Assembly (NCBI RefSeq): GCF_018881635.1
Contig: NZ_JACVPY010000002.1
Coordinates: forward strand, 1,629,795-1,693,794
Length of the DNA: 64,000 nucleotides
Direction of reading: 5' to 3'
Origin: Polynucleobacter sp. UB-Piko-W3
Lineage (GTDB): Bacteria; Pseudomonadota; Gammaproteobacteria; Burkholderiales; Burkholderiaceae
Of this stretch, positions 1,505 through 39,305 are shown piece after piece (the stretch's first letter is position 1; each line of letters begins with the position of its first letter). The notes below the pieces were generated by a model. It did not search any database. It was given only the letters and a program-made list of their open reading frames with translations, and was not told the DNA's origin. Made by a program: the position numbers and the translations under genes.

Positions 1505-2440
1505 TTGCAACATAGCGCTCCACCACTTTTCAGACAGGGCATTCCGGCCTTACTTAAACTGATTGTCTGTCTGTCAATCAGCATCGCTCTGATGCTGATT
1601 GATTTTCGTTTTAAGGCGCTTGATCCGATTCGGAATAATCTGAACTGGCTTTTGCGCCCGCTTGAATATGTCATGATGGCGCCTCGCAATACTTTCGAAG
1701 CGGCTTCAGAATATTTCACCACTCGCTCGACGCTTGATCAAGAAAATCAGGTAATGAAAGTGCGCCAAGCAGAACTCTCATTGCTTGCCAATCAATCCGA
1801 GTTCTTAATGATAGAGAATCAAAATTTACGCGAGTTGATGGCACTACAAAAACAAGTGCCCTTCAAAACTCTGCCAGTAGAAATTCTGTTTAATCCGCCC
1901 AATCCCATTTCACAGCGCATTGTGATCAACCGTGGCAGCAATGATGGCTTAAAGCTTGGTAACCCCATTGCCAATGATTCCGGCGTCCTTGGCCAAGTAG
2001 TTCGCCTCTATGAGCGCTCTGCTGAGGTCTCCTTGCTGGAGGATAGAGACTTTGCTGTGCCCGTTCAAGTCGCCCGCAATGGCTTGCGTGCTGCTGTTTT
2101 TGGGGCGGGACGTGGTAACCCATTGGAACTGCGCTATTTGCCCGTCGCCAGCGATCTAGAGGTTGGCGATATATTGTTAACCTCCGGAATCGATGGCGTC
2201 TATCCACCAGGATTTGCTGTTGCGGTCATTAGCAAAATTGAACGCAATGCCGATAAAAACTCATCTAATGTATTTTGCGTACCAGTGGCCGCAGTGAATC
2301 GCTATCGCCAAGCATTAGCTTTTTTGTATGATCCGCAGTTCGACGCTAAAGCACCAACGATTAACAATACATCAAGTACTGGTCCGGCAACAACCAATAC
2401 TCCTGGCCGTCGCCAAACTCGTGCGCGAGGAATGCAATGA
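1505..2440 (+). CDS. mreC: Rod shape-determining protein MreC
   Basis: MreC is a bitopic inner-membrane elongasome protein that activates PBP2. The 311 residues show a membrane helix (about 14-32, LLKLIVCLSISIALMLIDF), a coiled coil (about 72-105) and the periplasmic beta domain with NRGSNDGLKLGNPI and LLTSGIDGVYPPGFAV. The C-terminus is low-complexity, Thr/Asn/Arg-rich. The chosen start is a TTG at 1505, 24 bases after mreB stops; no ATG fits before the membrane helix. The stop overlaps the mreD start (ATGA at 2437-2440), which suggests translational coupling. Confidence 0.95.
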   Translation: MQHSAPPLFRQGIPALLKLIVCLSISIALMLIDFRFKALDPIRNNLNWLLRPLEYVMMAPRNTFEAASEYFTTRSTLDQENQVMKVRQAELSLLANQSEFLMIENQNLRELMALQKQVPFKTLPVEILFNPPNPISQRIVINRGSNDGLKLGNPIANDSGVLGQVVRLYERSAEVSLLEDRDFAVPVQVARNGLRAAVFGAGRGNPLELRYLPVASDLEVGDILLTSGIDGVYPPGFAVAVISKIERNADKNSSNVFCVPVAAVNRYRQALAFLYDPQFDAKAPTINNTSSTGPATTNTPGRRQTRARGMQ

Positions 2441-2961
2441 TTGATTTCCAAAGCGGCTATATATTGCGTCCGGTCAATCCGGCCTTCATTTATTTCAGCC
2501 TGTTTTGTGCGCTGCTATTAAATCTTTTGCCAATTGGCAACTATGGATGGGTACCAGACTGGCTCATTCTTTGTATTGTGTTTTGGAATATTCATCAACA
2601 TCGTTATGTTGGGGTGATATGGGCGTTTAGCTTAGGACTGTTAATAGATGTCCACAACTCCGATCTTTTGGGTCTGCATGCCTTTAGCTATGCACTAGTT
2701 GCATATATAGCCATCTCTTGGCATAGGCGGATTGTGGCGCTGGCCGTTCTATCGCAAGCACTCCATTTACTGCCGATCTTCTTGCTAGTTTCTTTATTTC
2801 CAGTCTTAGCGCACTGGGTACTCAGCGGAGATATTTATTGGTGGGCTTTAACAGGCACTATTCAGGCCATTATTGAGGCGATGCTTTGGCCGCTAGCAAC
2901 CCGCATATTGTTGGCGCCTCAACGTCGTCCCATTGACGTCGACCCTAATCGGCCGCTCTAA
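2437..2961 (+). CDS. mreD: Rod shape-determining protein MreD
   Basis: A 174-residue integral membrane protein with about five hydrophobic segments, including one starting PAFIYFSLFCALLLNLLPIG and the family stretch ALGLLIDVHNSDLLGLHAFSYAL. MreD works with MreC in the elongasome. It overlaps mreC by four bases and lies eight bases before mrdA, inside one operon. The sequence itself has few invariant residues, so the call rests on length, hydrophobicity and position between mreC and mrdA. Confidence 0.93.
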   Translation: MIDFQSGYILRPVNPAFIYFSLFCALLLNLLPIGNYGWVPDWLILCIVFWNIHQHRYVGVIWAFSLGLLIDVHNSDLLGLHAFSYALVAYIAISWHRRIVALAVLSQALHLLPIFLLVSLFPVLAHWVLSGDIYWWALTGTIQAIIEAMLWPLATRILLAPQRRPIDVDPNRPL

Positions 2962-2969
2962 GAAGCTGT

Positions 2970-4877
2970 ATGGTTTCTTTTAAAAAACCAAACCTCGACT
3001 CATTTCAAGAGCGCATCCATATTGCGACTTTGTTCGTCACATTTTGTTTTTTGCTTTTAGTCACTCGCTTGGTATGGCTACAGCTTTTTAGCCACGGCAA
3101 GTATGCTTTGCTAGCCGAAAGTAATCGTATCGCTCTAGTGCCTGCCCCAGCCAATCGCGGCCTGCTCATTGATCGCAACGGTATCGTAATTGGCCGAAAC
3201 TACTCTGCACTCACCCTGGACGTCAACGCTGAACAGCTTAAGGGCAATGTTGACCAACTGATTAACGAGCTTTCTGAAATTGTGGATATTTCGCCCAAGG
3301 ATCGGCGTAATTTCAAACGCTACCTAGAAGACTCCAGAAATATGGGTACATTTCCTTTGCGCTCCATGCTCAATGAGGCCGAAACTGCACGTTTTATGGC
3401 GAATCGATATCGTTTTCCAGGGGTAGAGATCCGCGCCAGAAGCTTTCGAGAGTATCCCTATAACGAGTTAGGCTCTCATCTGATTGGCTATATTGGTCGG
3501 GTTTCTCAAAAGGATAAGGAGCGCATGCAAGCTGAAATCGAGGGGGCTAAAGTGGATGACCCAGATGCATTGCAAGCTTCTTTTTTATCGGGCATTCAAT
3601 ACGTTGGCAAGATTGGTTTAGAGCAAAGCTACGAAACTGTTCTGCGGGGTGTGCCTGGATATGATCAAGTAGAAATTACTGCCGGCGGAAAACCTGTAAG
3701 GACACTTTCTAGCTCGCCCTCAGTACCCGGTAAAAATGTTGTGCTCTCTGTTGATATCAAATTACAGTACTTAGTAGAGCAACTCTATGGCAATTTCCGC
3801 GGCGCTTTTGTTGCAATAGAACCTGAAACTGGCGATATCTTGGCATTTGTCTCCAAACCTAACTTCAATCCCAATGATTTCGTTGAAGGCATTGACTCGG
3901 TAACCTGGAAAGAGCTTAATGACTCTCCCCAGAAACCGCTCTATAACCGTCCACTCAAAGGTATTTATCCTCCAGGATCAACCTATAAGCCTTTTATGGC
4001 GCTAGCTGCTTTGGAGACTCAAAAGCGTACGCCTTCGCAAACAATTTCTGATCCAGGCTTTTTTGATTTTGGTAATCACACCTTCCGCGATGATAAGAAA
4101 GGTGGTCACGGCATCGTTGATATGCAAAAGTCAATTGTTGAATCTTGTGATACGTATTACTACCTTCTTGCTCGCGATATGGGCGTCAATATGATGCATG
4201 ACTTCATGAAGCCATTGGGCTTTGGTCAGATCACTGGCATTGATTTACAAGGTGAATCTAGAGGCGTATTGCCATCAACCGAGTGGAAAAAAAATACCTT
4301 CAAAAAGCCTGAGCAGCAAAAATGGTACGAAGGTGAAACGATTTCTTTGGGTATTGGCCAAGGGTATAACGCCTTCACCATTTTGCAATTGGCACACGCA
4401 ATGGCAAACGTAGCGAATAACGGCATTGTGATGAAGCCCCACTTAGTAAAAGCAATTGAAGATCCATTTACTCGTAATAGGGTCTTAACTACGCCAAAAG
4501 AAAGCTATCGCATCGCGCTGAACCCAGAAAATATTGAGCTCATCAAAAAAGCGATGGTTGAGGTAAATGTTTCTGGAACAGGTACAGCAGCTTTTAAGGG
4601 TGCGGGATACGTTGCTGGAGGTAAGACTGGTACCGCTCAAGTCTTTAGCCTGAACTCAAAAGAATATAAGCACAGCTCTACAGCAGAATTCTTGCGAGAT
4701 CATGCTTTATATATTGCGTTTGCCCCCGCAGACAAACCCACCATCGTCATTGCTATGGTGGTTGAAAATGCAGGCTTTGGTGCGCAATGGGCTGCACCGA
4801 TTGCGCGTAAAGCATTGGACTACTACATTGAGGGCAAATGGCCTAAGGAGATTCCCGAGTGGAAAAGAGCCCCTTAA
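2970..4877 (+). CDS. mrdA: Penicillin-binding protein 2, elongasome transpeptidase
   Basis: A 635-residue class B PBP. It has one N-terminal membrane helix (about 19-40), a dimerisation/pedestal region with ANRGLLIDRNG and the transpeptidase domain. The catalytic serine is in PPGSTYKPF (STYK, near residue 337), SCD in VESCDTYYY, and the KTG box in AGGKTGTAQV (near 550). PBP2 crosslinks lateral-wall peptidoglycan in partnership with the RodA polymerase, whose gene begins inside the end of this one (19-base overlap). Confidence 0.97.
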   Translation: MVSFKKPNLDSFQERIHIATLFVTFCFLLLVTRLVWLQLFSHGKYALLAESNRIALVPAPANRGLLIDRNGIVIGRNYSALTLDVNAEQLKGNVDQLINELSEIVDISPKDRRNFKRYLEDSRNMGTFPLRSMLNEAETARFMANRYRFPGVEIRARSFREYPYNELGSHLIGYIGRVSQKDKERMQAEIEGAKVDDPDALQASFLSGIQYVGKIGLEQSYETVLRGVPGYDQVEITAGGKPVRTLSSSPSVPGKNVVLSVDIKLQYLVEQLYGNFRGAFVAIEPETGDILAFVSKPNFNPNDFVEGIDSVTWKELNDSPQKPLYNRPLKGIYPPGSTYKPFMALAALETQKRTPSQTISDPGFFDFGNHTFRDDKKGGHGIVDMQKSIVESCDTYYYLLARDMGVNMMHDFMKPLGFGQITGIDLQGESRGVLPSTEWKKNTFKKPEQQKWYEGETISLGIGQGYNAFTILQLAHAMANVANNGIVMKPHLVKAIEDPFTRNRVLTTPKESYRIALNPENIELIKKAMVEVNVSGTGTAAFKGAGYVAGGKTGTAQVFSLNSKEYKHSSTAEFLRDHALYIAFAPADKPTIVIAMVVENAGFGAQWAAPIARKALDYYIEGKWPKEIPEWKRAP

Positions 4878-6859: not shown

Positions 6860-7122
6860 ACGATCATCCTTGATCTATGTTCACATCAACCCTGGCGGGG
6901 CATCTAAACCTAACCTCATCAAGTATATGAGCATCCCCGAGTAAGAAATAGTCTATTAGTGTTCTACAGACAAATTAAATTGCGGGCGCTTACAGGACAT
7001 CGGCAAGTTCCACACAAATTTTTCACATCCTCTTATTCAGTTTTGGAGCCTCTGCTCTTGATATTTGTTGGGTAGGCAAACGGGTCTTAATTTCAGGAAT
7101 TAATATGCGATGTTCTGAAGGC

Positions 7123-7419
7123 TTAGGGTTTAAGGGCCTGAATGATTTGTTCGGGGCTAATAGGGCCCCAGACTTCAAGCCTCTTCTGCCTGCTATTTTG
7201 TCCAGAAATGAACTGAATCTGCTTTTGGGGCACCTTTAACTGCTTCGAAAGCCAGGCCAATAGCAGCTCATTGGCCTTGTTTTCTGAGGCGGGAGCCTGA
7301 AGAGAAATTTTGAGATAGCCATCATGCAAGCCCACCACTTTAGTGATCTTTGCACCAGGCTGACAATGCAGATTCAACGTAATTCCGTTGGGGGTTTGTT
7401 TTAACCAAATAGGTGTCAT
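7123..7419 (-). CDS. DUF167 / YggU family protein
   Basis: 98 residues with the family pattern LNLHCQPGAKITKVVG, then LKISLQAPASENKANELLLAWLSKQLKVP and ISGQNSRQKRLEV. The family is widespread in bacteria and its molecular role is not established. It starts 22 bases from the divergent carbonic anhydrase gene. Upstream of its stop, 6860-7122 holds no gene that I can recognise. Confidence 0.88.
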   Translation of the reverse strand: MTPIWLKQTPNGITLNLHCQPGAKITKVVGLHDGYLKISLQAPASENKANELLLAWLSKQLKVPQKQIQFISGQNSRQKRLEVWGPISPEQIIQALKP

Positions 7420-7441
7420 TAAAGTACTTTAAACTTAAACC

Positions 7442-8107
7442 ATGATTATGAAGAGCTCCAAAACGCTAGATCACCTATTTGCAAGCAATCGCGACTGGGC
7501 TGAAGGGATGATTGCCAAAGATCCTGATTTCTTTAAACGCTTAGTAAATCAACAGGCTCCAGAATACCTCTGGATTGGTTGCGCTGATAGCCGCGTACCG
7601 GCCAATGAAATTGTTGATCTGATGCCCGGCGAGCTTTTTGTTCATCGCAATGTTGCTAACGTTGTTGTTCATACCGACTTAAATTGTTTATCTGTTATTC
7701 AGTTCGCCACTGACTTGCTGAAAGTAAAACATATCATAGTAGTTGGGCATTATGGTTGTGCTGGCGTGCATGCGGCACTTAGTGATCGTCGCGTAGGCCT
7801 TGCTGACAATTGGTTGCGGCACGTTAAAGACGTTCATCAAAAACATGAACGCTATTTGGGAGAAGTGTTACCTACACCCAAACGCCAAGATCGTTTGTGT
7901 GAATTGAATGTGATTGAACAAGCGGTTAATGTGTGCGAGACCACCATTGTTCAAGATGCTTGGGCCCGCGGCCAAGACCTCACAGTACACGGCTGGGCAT
8001 ATCGTCTTGATACAGGAATCGTTAAAGATTTAGGAATGTCCTGCAGCTCAATTGAAGAGATGGAAGTGTGCTACAAAAAAACCTTAACTCGTTACGACGC
8101 TGAGTAA
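7442..8107 (+). CDS. can: Beta-class carbonic anhydrase
   Basis: A 221-residue enzyme that interconverts CO2 and bicarbonate. The zinc site is visible: the cysteine and the Asp-Arg pair in WIGCADSRVPA (near residue 42) and the His and Cys in VVGHYGCAGV (about 98-101). Length matches E. coli Can. The ATG at 7442 is used; an in-frame ATG two codons later (MKSSKTL) is equally plausible. It is followed after seven bases by an lpxL-like gene on the same strand. Confidence 0.96.
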   Translation: MIMKSSKTLDHLFASNRDWAEGMIAKDPDFFKRLVNQQAPEYLWIGCADSRVPANEIVDLMPGELFVHRNVANVVVHTDLNCLSVIQFATDLLKVKHIIVVGHYGCAGVHAALSDRRVGLADNWLRHVKDVHQKHERYLGEVLPTPKRQDRLCELNVIEQAVNVCETTIVQDAWARGQDLTVHGWAYRLDTGIVKDLGMSCSSIEEMEVCYKKTLTRYDAE

Positions 8108-25388: not shown

Positions 25389-25490
25389 AAAAACCACCCG
25401 AAGGTGGTTTTAGTGTTTCTTGGTGGCCCGGGGCGGAATCGAACCGGGACCTTAGGAGATTCTCATCCTACCTCTAGACTACTTCCAGCT
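25389..25490 (-). repeat. Truncated tRNA-like gene remnant with terminator
   Basis: On the minus strand: GTAGTCTAGAGGTAGGA, a TAGGA/TCCTA stem around an eight-base loop, a T-arm GGTTCGATTCC, the acceptor end GCCCCGGGCCACCA (ending at 25421) and a GGTGG hairpin terminator (25389-25411). The 5' acceptor strand is missing and the anticodon loop is one base too long, so it is not a working tRNA. The stop codon of brnA falls inside it. Confidence 0.65.
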
Positions 25491-25688
25491 AAGGTTCAAT
25501 TTCTTATGTGAAGCTGCGCAATCTCTCAAATAGAGATTAATGAGACTTTGATAAGGAATGCCCACCTCTTCTGATACAGATTTAAAGTAGCTCACTGAAT
25601 CCTCATCCAATCTAATGGTAATGGGCTTCTTAAGCATAGAAGCATATGGATTTTTACGAGCTTTTGAGAAATCATATTCTTTACGCAT
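25479..25688 (-). CDS. brnA: BrnA-type antitoxin
   Basis: 69 residues from the ATG at 25688, chosen because AGGTGA lies five bases upstream; ATGs at 25694 and a GTG at 25697 are possible. It has the BrnA/CopG-like ribbon-helix-helix region KPITIRLDEDSVSYFKSVSEEVGIPYQSLINLYLRDC. It neutralises BrnT and represses its own operon in characterised homologues. The stop codon lies within the tRNA-like remnant, so the C-terminus may have been altered at the insertion boundary. Confidence 0.88.
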   Translation of the reverse strand: MRKEYDFSKARKNPYASMLKKPITIRLDEDSVSYFKSVSEEVGIPYQSLINLYLRDCAASHKKLNLSWK

Positions 25689-25699
25689 CTTCATCACCT

Positions 25700-25978
25700 T
25701 TAATAAGCTTTTGACTCTTTAGGGGTTGCCTTACGAGCCGAAATAATACGAACGACATTACCCTCGCTTCGATAACAATGGCAAACCAAAATCACACGAA
25801 GAGAATGGCTTACTCCCAGCAAGATAAATCTGTCTTCATCCTCCGAATGATCGGGATCAGAAATTAACTTAGCGCTTTCATCATAAAACACAGATTTCGC
25901 CTCTTCAAACGAAATGCCGTGCTTTTTCAAATTGGCCGAAGCTTTTCTGGGCTCCCATTCAAATCGCAGTGAAGTCAT
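25700..25978 (-). CDS. brnT: BrnT-type ribonuclease toxin
   Basis: 92 residues from the ATG at 25978 (MTSLRFEWEPRKASANLKKHGISFEEA), the typical BrnT N-terminus. Core elements: VFYDESAKLISDPDHSEDEDRFILLGVS, then VILVCHCYRSEGNVVRIISARKATPKE with catalytic Arg/His candidates. BrnT is a RelE-like mRNA interferase. The order toxin then antitoxin, with a short spacer, is standard. The ORF could also start at an ATG in the palindrome (25993). Confidence 0.92.
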   Translation of the reverse strand: MTSLRFEWEPRKASANLKKHGISFEEAKSVFYDESAKLISDPDHSEDEDRFILLGVSHSLRVILVCHCYRSEGNVVRIISARKATPKESKAY

Positions 25979-25996
25979 ATGTACATTGTACATATG
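25976..25996 (-). promoter_or_regulatory. Operator palindrome and promoter of brnTA
   Basis: A perfect 21-base inverted repeat (CATATGTACA around a central base, then TGTACATATG) spans the brnT start. On the minus strand a TACAAT -10 sits within it, with TTGCTT 17 bases upstream. Transcription would begin at or next to the ATG at 25978, so the message may be leaderless, and the operator would be covered by BrnA or the BrnTA complex. Confidence 0.6.
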
Positions 25997-26066: not shown

Positions 26067-26320
26067 TGGTGGCCCGGGGCGGAATCGAACCACCGACACA
26101 AGGATTTTCAAATATCCTCCGATAGACCGCTTTCGCTTTGATTTCAAAGGCTTGAGTCACCAGTCTCGACTTGTCTAAAAATTGTGCGTCCTTGTGTCGG
26201 TCAAATTTGGCAATGAAATCAGAATCTTGCGAGGGACAATTTTTCTGTGCGCATAGATTGCGTTGTCATCCCTATGCCAATCAGCCACCATAGTGTCTTG
26301 TAATGTCGTTTTAAACAACT
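26067..26320 (-). repeat. tRNA-Phe 3'-half copy A plus shared element end
   Basis: 26067-26111 is identical to the 3' 45 bases of tRNA-Phe (39230-39274). The sequence up to 26320 matches 34376-34583 with few changes and ends in a decayed TGTCGTTTTAAAC near-palindrome at 26304-26320. The stretch 25997-26410 holds no gene; the short open frames across it are translations of tRNA sequence. Confidence 0.85.
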
Positions 26321-26410: not shown

Positions 26411-27265
26411 TTACTTTTTCCTAAGAAATGGAGGGATAAAACTAAATTCTTTTTGCTCTTGAGAGGCTACCATCGACTCGCCTTGTTTAAGAAATCCAAT
26501 TTGCGAGTCTTGAGCCTGTGATCGTATTAAAGGTACTGAACTCAGTGGAGGCTTTGACTGTAAGGTCATAGGAGCCTCAGATTTTTTCTTCTTACCCTCT
26601 AATATGTATTCATGAACGAAGTTACCGAACTCGTACATATTTTCTGAAATGATGCCATTGTCTATACGGAACCAAAAATCATTCAGTATTTCATTATTAA
26701 TTTGTGAGATTCTATAGATAGGTGGGCATATAAAACAGTTATCTAAAAAATCTAGTCCACGAAATTTAATTTCGCTTATTTGGTTCCGATCAACGCGACT
26801 AGGGGCGACTAGAATTATTTGGCCATTTTGCTTTATCTTGAGCATTTGACGCTGTACATACTCGAGAATAAAGATTTCAGTACTGGCAATTTCTACTTTA
26901 CTGTTAGAGCTTGGGACGATAACAATATCAAAATCCAACATAAAGTCGTAAGGCAGGCCAAACGTCCAGGTTAAATCCGCAATAGTAATTTCCGCATGGG
27001 CCCCGTAACGCCTTAATGCGGCCCTAGCTTCAAGCATCGTGTAATTAGAATTTTGCTGATAAGACAACCCAGCTTTATAAGCCTGAATATTTGAGTGGGG
27101 ATTTTTACTAATGAGCACTGATGAGGTGCCCTGTTTATCAAAGTCGATAAGCGAGACTTTGTGATTTTTTTCAATCGCAAGAAATCCCGTTAGATTTGCG
27201 GAGATAGTACTCTTTCCAACCCCACCTTTTTGGTTGGTAATGAGAATCTTGACCTTATCTCTCAT
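26411..27265 (-). CDS. ParA/MinD-family ATPase with FtsZ-tail-like C-terminus
   Basis: 284 residues. The deviant Walker A KGGVGKST (about residues 12-19) and the A' motif LIDFDKQGTSS mark the ParA family, and IVIVPSSNS fits the Walker B region. Residues 231-275 are a Lys/Ser/Pro/Gln-rich linker, ending in FSFIPPFLRKK, which resembles the conserved FtsZ C-terminal peptide (IPAFLRK in E. coli). There is no ParB gene. ATGA overlap with the Sel1 gene upstream indicates coupling. A role in positioning at the division site is inferred only from the tail. Confidence 0.85.
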   Translation of the reverse strand: MRDKVKILITNQKGGVGKSTISANLTGFLAIEKNHKVSLIDFDKQGTSSVLISKNPHSNIQAYKAGLSYQQNSNYTMLEARAALRRYGAHAEITIADLTWTFGLPYDFMLDFDIVIVPSSNSKVEIASTEIFILEYVQRQMLKIKQNGQIILVAPSRVDRNQISEIKFRGLDFLDNCFICPPIYRISQINNEILNDFWFRIDNGIISENMYEFGNFVHEYILEGKKKKSEAPMTLQSKPPLSSVPLIRSQAQDSQIGFLKQGESMVASQEQKEFSFIPPFLRKK

Positions 27266-27933
27266 AGCAATTTATATAGCTGACGCATATTTTCAATCTT
27301 TGAATGTAAATGCTTTGCCTGCTCAAGCTCTTTAGAAAAATCATCTTTAACACTATGCTCCATGATGAGCAAAATTCTTTTTGCCTGATCGTGCTGAGCT
27401 AAGCTTGCTAGTGTTAGGTAGAAAAATGCCTTGCTATAGTTAACGGGAATAATTTCACCCTTACCGAAGTAACTGCCCAGTGTATAAGCCGCCTGCCTAC
27501 TTCCAAGCTCAGCACCCTTAGCCAAAAACTCAATCCCTTTTTCTATATCCTGAGGGATTCCCTGTGTAGCCCCTACTCCAGTGATATAAATATTCCCGAG
27601 ATTACAAAGCGCATCGTGAACATCTTCCTTAATCGCTTTTAAATAGAACTCAACTGCTTTTTTGTAATCAGGTCCATTGCCAATTGATCCCCGCTCATGA
27701 ATTAAACCCACGTTGTAATCTGCGTAGCCATTGCCTCTTCCAGACTCTCGATTTAACCAAGTCATTAGACTTTCAATCTGATCTGTCTTTAATAGGCCAT
27801 CTGAACACATTTTAATTAAGGCAAACTGAGCATCTGCGCTTAGTTCATATTGAGCCAAATCAAAAAAGATCTCAAAGGCCACGTCATTCTTACCATTACG
27901 AAGATTTAACTCACCTAGCTCTACTGTAGACAT
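27262..27933 (-). CDS. Sel1-repeat protein
   Basis: 223 residues with Sel1-like helical repeats: ADYNVGLIHERGSIGNGPDYKKAVEFYLKAIKEDVHDALCNLGNIYITG and KGIEFLAKGAELGSRQAAYTLGSYFGKGE. Sel1 proteins act as adaptors in complexes. No signal peptide, so likely cytoplasmic. GAGGAA lies before the ATG at 27933. It is translationally coupled to ParA, which suggests a joint complex. Confidence 0.88.
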   Translation of the reverse strand: MSTVELGELNLRNGKNDVAFEIFFDLAQYELSADAQFALIKMCSDGLLKTDQIESLMTWLNRESGRGNGYADYNVGLIHERGSIGNGPDYKKAVEFYLKAIKEDVHDALCNLGNIYITGVGATQGIPQDIEKGIEFLAKGAELGSRQAAYTLGSYFGKGEIIPVNYSKAFFYLTLASLAQHDQAKRILLIMEHSVKDDFSKELEQAKHLHSKIENMRQLYKLL

Positions 27934-27952
27934 TGCTTCCTCAACTAAAATA

Positions 27953-28186
27953 TTATTTGGCCACTGAAAACATGTTGGGATCTATTGGATAAGACTTAGC
28001 CCCAATATCAGATAATTCAAATCGCTTAACCTCACCACTATCTTGTTGATAGTCCAAAATTGTGGCCATACGATAAAGACTCAAGACTTGTGAGCAGGCA
28101 TCTCGTAAATTATTGGCATCAATACGAATTGTAGAAATTGGGCTATCAGCTAATTTATTAACCCTAAATCGAATCTTCCAATACAT
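27953..28186 (-). CDS. Small unknown protein in the ParA operon
   Basis: 77 residues from the ATG at 28186, two bases after the stop of the XRE gene; a longer form starting at 28279 would overlap that gene by 91 bases and is less likely. Sequence MYWKIRFRVNKLADSPIS... then IDANNLRDACSQVLSLYRMATILDYQQDSGEVKRFELSDIG is a mixed alpha/beta pattern that I do not recognise. Tight packing in the operon supports a common function. Confidence 0.65.
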   Translation of the reverse strand: MYWKIRFRVNKLADSPISTIRIDANNLRDACSQVLSLYRMATILDYQQDSGEVKRFELSDIGAKSYPIDPNMFSVAK

Positions 28187-28188
28187 CT

Positions 28189-28506
28189 CTAGTCTTGCTT
28201 TCTTAGAAAATGAGGAATAGACATGTCTAATTCTTTTGCGGTAATGGGCCCCTCTTCTTTTGTGGGGCTTGTTGCGCATGAAGAATCGAAACGAACCGCT
28301 TGTGCGTAGCGATCAGCCGATTCTGAAAATGCCTCTAATGAATTATCAAATGCGTATAAGTTGCCATCTTCAATGGCAACTAATTCAACTACGGTGACTT
28401 TCAGTGTAGAGGCAAGGATTGCTAAATTGAACCCCTGCTCTTCGCGAACCTTACGCAAGCGCTTACCTAGCAACTTGGCGGCTTTTATTTGTTCTAGGCC
28501 TGCCAT
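28189..28506 (-). CDS. XRE/RodZ-like helix-turn-helix protein with FtsZ-tail-like C-terminus
   Basis: 105 residues from the ATG at 28506, with GGAGGGG five bases upstream. Residues about 8-50 form a helix-turn-helix of the XRE/RodZ type (LGKRLRKVREEQGFNLAILASTLKVTVVELVAIEDGN). After a Ser/Thr-rich stretch the protein ends in MSIPHFLRKQD, very close to the E. coli FtsZ end (DIPAFLRKQAD). It could bind DNA through the HTH and the FtsZ-tail receptors through the tail. No membrane segment. Confidence 0.85.
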   Translation of the reverse strand: MAGLEQIKAAKLLGKRLRKVREEQGFNLAILASTLKVTVVELVAIEDGNLYAFDNSLEAFSESADRYAQAVRFDSSCATSPTKEEGPITAKELDMSIPHFLRKQD

Positions 28507-28585: not shown

Positions 28586-30301
28586 TTATTGATGTGCTTG
28601 TGGCAGCTGAATGACAAATCTAGCCCCACCTCCGACTCCATCCCCATGCTGGATAGAGCCTCCATGTCTAGTGACGATATGCTTACAAAGCCATAACCCC
28701 AAACCCATACCTGTTTGCTTGGTTGTGCTTAGCAATTCAAATAGTTGGGACTTAAATTCGGGAGATACCCCTGGACCATTGTCAGAAACAGATAATTGAA
28801 CTGACTTACCATCCCCAGTGGCTTCTACAGCAATGCGCCGCTGGAGAGTACCTGAATTTGACAATGCTTGAATCGCGTTATTAAGTAAATTTAATATGAC
28901 TTGTTCGATTTCGGAAGAATTTACCTGAATCAATAAGCCATTATCAACTCGAAGCTGAATTTGGATATTTTTACTCTTAAGTTCAGGCTTAACAATATCG
29001 AGAACTTTTACTATCAAATCGCCCAACAGAAATTTTTGAGTATTTGTTTCGCCTTCTGTAAATATTGACCTCAGCGACCTAACAATCGTTGCTGCCCTCT
29101 TATTATCTTGCTCCAGCGAATCCAATATTTCTTTACCCAATTCTGGATTGAGCACTCCTTTTTCTAATTTCATTTTGAGAAACTGAATATTGAGATTAGA
29201 TGCGCCAAGCGGTTGATTGAGTTCGTGGGCAATCGATGCCGATAAGGCGCCAGTAGCCGCTGTCTTGTTGGCTTTAAGAAGTGAGCCAACCATAAGATCG
29301 CGCTCATCCAGCAAGGCTTGTATTTGCGCTTTATCTTTTTTTAGTTTTTTATTCCAAATCCAAAATAGTATTAGCCCCAGCAATAACGCTATCGTCAGTA
29401 TCGCCAAATAATTCGCAAACGTACGCCAACTACCATAATCAAATCGCACTGAAAACCACTTTGTTCTTAGGCTTTGCTTTTCCTGCTCAGTTAATGTGTC
29501 GAGCACTTTGTTGGTTAAGGTGACTAACTCAGGCCAATCCTTTCTAACCATCATAGACTCACCCTGAATGGGAAAGTTTGTAGGGGCCGCCACTTTAAGA
29601 TTCGAAAAACCATACTGAGAAATCATAAAAGTAGCATTGACTAAGTCCGCGACGTAAGCATCGCCAACACCCGATGAAATGGCTTGTAACGCTTCATGTT
29701 GTGTCTTTTTTTCGATAAACTCAAAATCAGATACCTCTTTACGCACCAAGCCATTTACGACAAAGCCCTTAACGCCTACAATTTTTTTTCCAGACAGATC
29801 ACCAAGCGAAATAATTCGCGCGCTATCGGTCCTAGTGATAATTACCCATGGATAGAAAAGGTACTGATTTGTATACAGCACATACTTCAGTCGTTCTGGT
29901 AAAAATCTGCCAGTCATGAACACATCTGGTCCATTCGCTGTTCCTATAAAAGGGATTGCCTCAGAAAAGGAGCCAGAGAATTGATCTTTGAATTCGCAAT
30001 TTAGCTTATATACCGCACATGTAATCTTGGCGTAATCTATTGCCAAGCCAACGGGCTTTTTTTTATCGTAAAAATATGGCGGGGCTTCAGTACTTACCCA
30101 AAATCTAATTTTATGATTGGCATCGATCCACTGTTTTTCAGAATCCGATAGCTGAATTTTCCCAGTCAAGCGATCTGAAATCGCCACAACATCTGGGCTA
30201 ATAGCATCATCTTTTATCTGAGCCAACGCATTGGAAGTAAAGATTCCAATGAAAAAGACAATATAAATATTGCTTAAATGGATTTTGGCAATATTTTTCA
30301 A
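28586..30301 (-). CDS. Hybrid periplasmic-binding sensor histidine kinase
   Basis: 571 residues: signal peptide, a periplasmic solute-binding type domain (SBP_bac_3 pattern, about 60-285, with IRFWVSTEAPPYFYDKKKPVGLAIDYAKITC and LGDLSGKKIVGVKGF), one membrane helix (about 302-320), a short coiled linker and the kinase core with the phosphoacceptor SASIAHELNQPLGA, NLLNNAIQAL, DNGPGV and GMGLGLWLC. The kinase core is nearly identical to that at 18726-20144, but the input half is unrelated. No response regulator next to it. Confidence 0.9.
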   Translation of the reverse strand: MKNIAKIHLSNIYIVFFIGIFTSNALAQIKDDAISPDVVAISDRLTGKIQLSDSEKQWIDANHKIRFWVSTEAPPYFYDKKKPVGLAIDYAKITCAVYKLNCEFKDQFSGSFSEAIPFIGTANGPDVFMTGRFLPERLKYVLYTNQYLFYPWVIITRTDSARIISLGDLSGKKIVGVKGFVVNGLVRKEVSDFEFIEKKTQHEALQAISSGVGDAYVADLVNATFMISQYGFSNLKVAAPTNFPIQGESMMVRKDWPELVTLTNKVLDTLTEQEKQSLRTKWFSVRFDYGSWRTFANYLAILTIALLLGLILFWIWNKKLKKDKAQIQALLDERDLMVGSLLKANKTAATGALSASIAHELNQPLGASNLNIQFLKMKLEKGVLNPELGKEILDSLEQDNKRAATIVRSLRSIFTEGETNTQKFLLGDLIVKVLDIVKPELKSKNIQIQLRVDNGLLIQVNSSEIEQVILNLLNNAIQALSNSGTLQRRIAVEATGDGKSVQLSVSDNGPGVSPEFKSQLFELLSTTKQTGMGLGLWLCKHIVTRHGGSIQHGDGVGGGARFVIQLPQAHQ

Positions 30302-30371: not shown

Positions 30372-30563
30372 TGTCGTTTTAAACGACATTGAGAGTTAAT
30401 GGACTATTGACCGACACAGGGATGAATAATTGACATGTCCTTTTGAAGGACAGTTCATGATGCGGATATCCGAGACTAATGGCGCCGAACCCCGCCAAAC
30501 CATAAAAGAAAATAGCCCAACAAGTGGGCTATTGAGATTCTTGGTGGCCCGGGGCGGAATCGA
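30372..30563 (-). repeat. Element-end repeat with tRNA-end copy D
   Basis: Contains TGTCGTTTTAAACGACA (30372-30388), the second near-palindrome TGTCCTTTTGAAGGACA (30436-30452), the AATAGCCC hairpin (30510-30533) and 22 bases of tRNA-Phe 3' end (30542-30563). The arrangement and much of the sequence recur at 32502-32722. No gene lies between 30302 and 30592. Confidence 0.8.
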
Positions 30564-39067: not shown

Positions 39068-39274
39068 TCGCTTAAATCGACGCTTGACCACCACAAGGAT
39101 GTCAAATTGGTTTGTCGTTTTAAACGACATTCCGAGTCAATGGGAAAGTTGGATGGCCTAGAGAAATGGTGCCAGACCGCGGCTAACACTAGAGATTCTA
39201 TGGACCACTTCTAATGTTCGGAGAATTCTTGGTGGCCCGGGGCGGAATCGAACCACCGACACAAGGATTTTCAA
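39068..39274. repeat. Right copy of the 207-base direct repeat
   Basis: Partner of 34169-34375. It runs from GTCGCTTAAATCGACGC through TGTCGTTTTAAACGACA (39113-39129) to the anticodon loop of the intact tRNA-Phe. Just outside it, CGTCCTTTAAAAGGACG (39039-39055) is the second near-palindrome in inverted orientation. Confidence 0.9.
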
Positions 39275-39305
39275 TCCTCTGCTCTACCGACTGAGCTACC
39301 AGGCC
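39230..39305 (-). tRNA. tRNA-Phe (GAA)
   Basis: A complete 76-base cloverleaf on the minus strand: GGCCTGG acceptor pairing with CCGGGCC, D-arm AGCTCAGTCGGTAGAGC, anticodon loop TTGAAAA with anticodon GAA, T-arm GGTTCGATTCC, and an encoded CCA (39230-39232). Its 3' half is the sequence copied across the island, so it is the integration target. Confidence 0.97.

Follow-up and report, generated by a model that had tools for sequence, protein, structure and literature searches.

An operon of Polynucleobacter sp. UB-Piko-W3 encodes a ParA-family ATPase and a RodZ-type helix-turn-helix protein with C-terminal tails like that of FtsZ

The 64,000-nucleotide stretch of Polynucleobacter sp. UB-Piko-W3 analyzed here (the window; contig NZ_JACVPY010000002.1, positions 1,629,795 to 1,693,794) contains a minus-strand operon whose first and last genes encode unrelated proteins with closely similar C-termini. 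The last gene encodes a ParA/MinD-family ATPase of 284 amino acids with the Walker A motif KGGVGKST (26411..27265, minus strand), recognized by its fold and by CbiA, AAA_31, ParA, and MipZ Pfam matches above cut-off. The first gene encodes a protein of 105 amino acids, here called XRE (28189..28506, minus strand), with a predicted RodZ-type helix-turn-helix (HTH), a linker, and an FtsZ-like tail; its HTH_25 and HTH_19 matches fall below the curated cut-offs, and its assignment draws on the family profile. The ParA protein ends in ...KEFSFIPPFLRKK (that is, FSFIPPFLRKK), in which pattern scans and family conservation mark IPPFLRKK-stop (26411..26437, minus strand) as a mimic of the FtsZ C-terminal peptide; XRE ends in ...LDMSIPHFLRKQD (MSIPHFLRKQD), with the mimic IPHFLRKQD (28192..28218, minus strand) found by pattern scan. 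The single FtsZ match in the host genome (L001) ends in ...DYYEIPAFLRKQAD, also given as YEIPAFLRKQAD or YYEIPAFLRKQAD, and its tail, IPAFLRKQAD, matches both mimics at IPxFLRK. A first-pass annotation had taken both C-termini for FtsZ-tail mimics and proposed this comparison with the host's own tail; the match upholds it, and the genome scan and family conservation described below make the case stronger than it was stated.

The pattern IPxFL-[K/R/Q/H/S/N] has 22 matches in the 2.05-Mb host genome, against nine for a reversed control pattern; it fixes the first position as I and limits the residues after FL, and other variants escape it. Only four of the 22 matches are C-terminal in an open reading frame (ORF) of at least 100 amino acids: FtsZ, the window ParA, a ParA paralog (C2:927 kb), and the window XRE. 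Both tails proposed by the annotation are thus present; its count of two is too low, as the genome has three mimics. A background set of 686 other ORFs of at least 100 amino acids, drawn from a subset of the loci retrieved, contains none that ends in [ILV]PxF[LV] and one with a looser match (LLPNILGE). A genus-wide scan for the C-terminal pattern matched 98 of 186 genomes; among 30 matched loci examined, two ORFs exceeded 100 amino acids, and both encode ParA. Further carriers of the tail may therefore exist in the genus.

Within the genus, the ParA family is found in 46 of 186 genomes and the XRE family in 43 (E 1e-6), three of these with partial or RodZ-like matches only. The search profiles held tail columns; the ORFs of the loci were re-scored with hidden Markov models (HMMs) of the cores alone, and on this footing the strict [ILV]PxF[LV] tail is kept in 46 of 48 distinct in-genus ParA proteins and I-P-x-F-[LV] in 43 of 45 XRE proteins, counting as one those rows whose final 80 residues agree. 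Absence of the tail from homologs, which the annotation would have taken as evidence against its proposal, is confined in these tallies to L211 (ILAFLIKQN) and L217 (IPQYLFKGD) for ParA and to L205 and L207 for XRE. The ParA tally comprises 49 proteins, one of which (L015, ending in IPSIIRAKPANF) is from another family; left out of it are the contig-edge fragments L032 and L092 and the rows scoring below 200 bits, namely the tailless L136-L138 and the broken G020 copy L014, whereas L003, which lacks its N-terminus at a contig edge, is kept. The XRE tally of 45 omits ORFs of at least 140 amino acids and core scores below 40 bits, which drops L112 from genome G205 (tailed) and L208 (tailless).

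In the first alignments (14 ParA and 13 XRE sequences), the tail is far more conserved than the linker, with identities of 64% versus 18% in ParA and 73% versus 19% in XRE; basic residues after the I-P-x-F-L core are common, not fixed. The I, P, F, and L codons occur in 33 different encodings among 46 ParA genes and in 22 among 43 XRE genes, indicating that selection acts on the peptide. A chance origin of the tails is ruled out by these differing encodings together with the absence of the pattern from the background ORFs. On the sequence evidence, the C-terminal FtsZ-like tail is a linear motif under selection.

A tree of 52 ParA proteins places the tail on every major in-genus branch; the outgroup branches are long, with uncertain points of attachment, and of the four outgroup proteins three are tailless and one ends in IPSIIRAK. 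Seven proteins, the window ParA among them, form a clade (support 99/95), and four of the seven, in the host genome (G000) and in G054, G400, and G012, adjoin or lie near XRE. The two families co-occur, a point the annotation had suggested checking, in 21 genomes versus 9.9 expected when the three XRE genomes with partial or RodZ-like matches are left out, and in 22 versus 10.6 when all are kept, figures that ignore phylogeny. In G205, from another Burkholderiales family, a 95-amino-acid HTH_25 protein ends in FIPKFLRDDLSA and has a LuxR-type response regulator directly upstream. An order-wide search with the XRE profile matched 116 of 399 genomes, the best matches outside the genus being mostly ORFs of 280-420 amino acids that we take for RodZ from their length and ends; one order-wide match, L045, is confirmed as RodZ by RodZ_C. 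A scan of viral contigs for the XRE family returned 94 pattern stretches, with no relative among these. One ParA copy (L014; G020:C8:48294) is apparently frame-broken, with an ORF of 225 amino acids and an IPTFLRRK-stop tail downstream in another frame.

The ParA model has an ordered core (residues 1-231; predicted local distance difference test [pLDDT] scores of 76-97 in ten-residue core blocks) followed by a disordered linker (residues 232-275; 26441..26572, minus strand) with pLDDT below 50. The flexible linker that the annotation assigned to both proteins is therefore borne out for ParA by the model and for XRE by divergence only. The nearest solved structures to the ParA fold include TP228 ParA, MipZ (2xit), MinD (1hyq), and ParF, and by this model the window protein folds as a ParA/MinD-family ATPase. 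It has the ATPase fold and Walker A motif (KGGVGKS/T) of a partition system; no match to ParB was found among the operon genes (those for the histidine kinase, RodZ-type HTH protein, 77-amino-acid protein, and Sel1 protein), and no search was made for non-ParB centromere binders or parS.

The commonest setting of the ParA family is a bactofilin neighborhood. By an HMM built from seven Pfam-confirmed bactofilins (PF04519), at least 41 of 52 ParA loci hold a bactofilin no more than 2.5 kb away, the short flanks of many loci making this figure a minimum; an M23 peptidase is Pfam-confirmed near three bactofilin-ParA loci (L052, L051, and L056). No bactofilin was found near any of the four outgroup ParA (L055 and L136-L138), and the strict tail is missing from all four. 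The ParA context was at first taken for a cellulose (BcsQ) operon, an idea dropped because the neighbors are bactofilins. Elsewhere in the host genome (L236 1824-5845; G000:C2:993000-999000), three bactofilins identified by Pfam surround a 329-amino-acid HTH_25-like protein that scores below cut-off. ORFs resembling flhB by their start sequence lie close to the ParA gene in L049, L052, L055 (outgroup), and L121, and a role of the ParA family near flagella is possible.

The XRE family profile has its best PDB match in 2wus_R (E 1.9e-6), followed by 3fym_A, and matches 4gqm_A too, over the HTH and the following helices; it also matches the HTH of the RodZ_C-bearing L045. We take 2wus_R to be the RodZ chain of an MreB-RodZ complex and 3fym to be a RodZ-type HTH from S. 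aureus; an ordinary DNA-binding repressor is disfavored as a description of XRE, its closest solved relatives being RodZ-type HTHs, though XRE may still bind DNA. The 4gqm structure is described as CT009, a chlamydial RodZ (PMC4047632). With the window XRE sequence alone, no RodZ chain was matched in PDB and the HTH_25 score fell below cut-off, and a single-sequence fold model (mean pLDDT 42) is unusable; as judged by profile comparison, XRE is nonetheless a RodZ-type HTH. The transmembrane segment and periplasmic domain of RodZ are absent from its 105 amino acids, which are taken up whole by HTH, linker, and tail. An mreB gene lies in the same window at about 467-1456 (G000:C2:1630261-1631250). 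Downstream of XRE, L196 encodes a second, longer HTH_25 protein; L201 does too, with a score under the Pfam threshold. Beside XRE, a conserved protein of about 130 amino acids is encoded in L223 (4461-4850), L197 (3571-3963), L231 (3615-4016), and L204 (3464-3889); the L223 copy has no Pfam family, and three of the four loci hold a bactofilin.

The operon runs, all on the minus strand, from XRE through a gene for a 77-amino-acid protein without a Pfam family (27953..28186) and one for a Sel1-repeat protein of 223 amino acids (27262..27933; Pfam) to ParA. The XRE start is an ATG at 28506, preceded by GGAGGGG. Gaps of 2 and 19 nt and then an ATGA overlap separate the four genes, which by position therefore form one operon, as the annotation had supposed. 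Homologs of the 77-amino-acid protein are encoded directly downstream of XRE in G400, G481, and G051, and homologs of the Sel1 protein in the XRE operons of G400 (L214) and G573 (L227). A sensor histidine kinase with a solute-binding domain (28586..30301, minus strand) lies 79 nt upstream of XRE, and in 14 of 45 XRE loci a histidine kinase cluster directly precedes XRE in the same orientation; this tally includes the window and G205, excludes the XRE of L228 (ORF filter), and covers several loci with short flanks.

The window operon lies between copies of the 3′ end of a tRNA-Phe gene. An exact 45-bp copy of its 3′ half (26067..26111, minus strand) marks the downstream border and an exact 22-bp copy of its 3′ end (30542..30563, minus strand) the upstream border; in all, exact copies of 45-48 bp are found at 26067, 32701, and 34331 and of 22-25 bp at 30542 and 25421, with a complete tRNA-Phe at 39230-39305. 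The segment 25421-39305 has the appearance of a direct-repeat array of tRNA-Phe 3′ ends separating small gene cassettes. In a relative, G007 (L057 435-7563), eight copies lie 0.6-2.1 kb apart, all exact in their final 22 bp, with a ninth, carrying one mismatch, further on; there the histidine kinase-XRE pair occupies one repeat interval and a BrnT/BrnA toxin-antitoxin pair another (7005-7519). The window has its own BrnT/BrnA interval (25479-25993), and the two pairs are identical at 96 of 97 and 72 of 72 residues with different neighbors. In a scan of 44 XRE loci, several tRNA-Phe copies with at most two mismatches were found in L057, L060, L196, and L225; none were found in 20 bactofilin-ParA loci. 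No integrase or tyrosine recombinase stood out in the ORF list for 22-41 kb, where no search was aimed at integrases. The flanking repeats suggest that the window copy of the operon travels in a tRNA-anchored cassette array, with the ParA family mostly outside such arrays; the annotation's talk of an element fits the window copy and not the repeat-free bactofilin-ParA loci. Comparable tRNA-repeat islands have been described in Methylophilaceae (PMC10872708).

ParA and XRE look like accessory cytoskeleton proteins rather than partition or repressor genes of an element. In view of the bactofilin-linked relatives of ParA and the RodZ type of XRE, the annotation's proposal that the tails position element DNA is not the one we favor. 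Proteins that bind the FtsZ tail in E. coli are ZipA, FtsA, MinC, ZapD, ClpX, and SlmA. The host genome encodes FtsA beside ftsZ (Pfam), ZapD (E 5e-63), and a ZipA-like protein (E 1.9e-7, partial match). A search for MinC_C found no match in this 99.94% complete genome and was positive in an E. coli control; MinC, which the annotation had listed as a receptor, is thus not among the candidates. The FtsZ residues reported as critical are I374, F377, and L378 for ZipA (PMC8669495) and I374 and L378 for FtsA, MinC, and SlmA (PMC4117426), and it is at these receptor-critical residues that the mimics hardly vary.

We put at roughly 0.6 the probability that the ParA and XRE tails dock on FtsA, the ZipA-like protein, or ZapD at the division site. 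On this model, the two proteins would be accessory cytoskeleton factors that each carry the FtsZ docking-peptide mimic on a disordered linker; the tail would occupy the pocket in which FtsA, and/or the ZipA-like protein and ZapD, receives the FtsZ tail. The ParA ATPase and the RodZ-type protein would thereby be recruited to the site of division, sharing or competing for FtsZ's own anchors there. The histidine kinase directly upstream in the window operon may couple docking to a signal. Binding, localization, and effect on division are what we infer from the conserved tails and the receptors present.

Several observations weigh against docking. A single FtsZ tail is reported to bind weakly, at 20 µM for ZipA and 50 µM for FtsA (PMC4117426), and docking would therefore depend on avidity. 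RodZ binds MreB through an aromatic pair (F60/Y64 in E. coli and Y66/F70 in CT009, as reported in PMC4047632) that is not conserved in the XRE family, where the aligned columns are mostly D/K/N/Q and N and a Y stands at the second column in seven of 45 proteins; by this feature XRE falls outside RodZ, and bridging to MreB, which the RodZ match had suggested, is weakened. A bactofilin lies within 2.5 kb in only four of 45 XRE loci, and the HMM found none within that distance of window-type ParA; the bactofilin-ParA locus L123 also holds flhB (Pfam; 2165-3295). The tail columns in the search profiles may have favored tailed members, tailless ones nonetheless being found, and the co-occurrence figures take no account of phylogeny. 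The distribution of both families is patchy, which points to an accessory function.

The same receptors would serve if the proteins were competitive division inhibitors, the tails occupying FtsA, ZipA, or ZapD, displacing FtsZ, and delaying division under histidine kinase control. This is unlikely, although its receptor logic is identical, a histidine kinase lies directly upstream of XRE in the 14 loci mentioned, and free FtsZ tail peptide is reported to compete with FtsZ for SlmA in vitro (PMC4117426): micromolar affinity of a single tail would demand very high expression, and the prevailing bactofilin neighborhood of ParA (41/52) suggests structure over inhibition. Recruitment by the tails is the more likely of the two. 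Alternatively, the shared receptor might be a bactofilin or other cytoskeletal partner that reads the same peptide, with no divisome protein involved. The 41 ParA loci, the four XRE loci with a bactofilin (L227 and L223 Pfam-confirmed), and the joint absence of bactofilin and strict tail around the outgroup ParA agree with such a receptor; it is improbable in that it gives no reason why the tails should agree with that of the host FtsZ at IPxFLRK(Q), and no bactofilin neighbor was found for most XRE or for the window-type ParA.

Docking is also favored over degradation, in which the tail would make ParA and XRE ClpXP substrates, as the FtsZ C-terminus does; that terminus is listed as a ClpX signal (PMC8138137). 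ClpX is reported to read FtsZ residues 379-383, with R379 important (PMC5256927), positions that vary in the mimics. Only 33 of 48 ParA and 27 of 43 XRE proteins have R at the position matching R379, while I, P, F, and L scarcely change; the ClpX determinants being the variable positions speaks against a pure degron, which is very improbable. A short basic-hydrophobic membrane-targeting sequence can be all but set aside, even with ParA in the MinD/ParA superfamily and MinD proteins ending in amphipathic helices, as a near-invariant proline and fixed I-P-x-F-L spacing (46/48 and 43/45) are unexpected for a membrane helix and tails such as IPAFLSKQN and IPVFLQKIA are short and carry little charge.

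The mimics share with the FtsZ C-terminal peptide the sequence IPxFL[RK]K on a disordered linker, with the conserved I, F, and L corresponding to reported receptor contacts; they differ in sitting on proteins not homologous to tubulin, with receptors that are candidates only. The Z-ring regulators MipZ, MinD, and ParA have the same ParA-superfamily ATPase fold as the window protein but act on FtsZ directly or via MinC, and we know of none with an FtsZ tail. In Myxococcus xanthus, a ParA-type ATPase is reportedly tied functionally to bactofilins (ParA/PadC with BacNOP), in another organism and with a role said to be chromosome segregation; to our knowledge, no FtsZ-like tail has been reported for it. 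A short C-terminal FtsZ motif common to the unrelated PBP4 binds one hub, GpsB, in S. aureus; that motif, (S/T/N)-R-x-x-R-(R/K), is reported as unique to S. aureus FtsZ and is not of the FtsA/ZipA type (PMC11062636). The Firmicutes protein EzrA similarly is described as reaching the septum, as an accessory division protein, via a short motif read by FtsA; its QNR motif is not presented there as FtsZ-like, and EzrA is transmembrane (PMC12288466). RodZ shares the XRE-fold HTH, 2wus_R being the best match of the family profile, and the cytoplasmic domain of E. coli RodZ is reported to interact with FtsZ too (PMC6946637); the window protein differs in its length of about 105 amino acids, in lacking the transmembrane and periplasmic parts and the MreB-binding aromatics, and in its added FtsZ-like tail.

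The portions of the literature on bactofilins, ParA-like ATPases, the FtsZ tail, and FtsA available to us describe no FtsZ-tail mimics of this kind, and those returned for 'IPAFLRK' make no mention of mimics. What is new is a known docking peptide on unexpected carriers. A broader and more tentative proposal, possible though somewhat doubtful, is that the FtsZ tail serves these bacteria as a docking address of general use that can pass to other proteins. At least two unrelated families (bactofilin-linked ParA and soluble RodZ-type HTH proteins) would have acquired it independently, with part of their spread on tRNA-anchored cassettes; two-component signals and accessory modules of the cytoskeleton could then plug into FtsA, ZipA, and ZapD and tune division-site assembly where MinC is not found. 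The FtsZ tail is usually viewed as FtsZ's own contact with the divisome. If the proposal is true, the FtsZ-tail receptors would form a docking hub shared with other cytoskeletal proteins, bactofilin-linked proteins would have a route to FtsA-type anchors, and division control in these abundant freshwater bacteria could be approached genetically.

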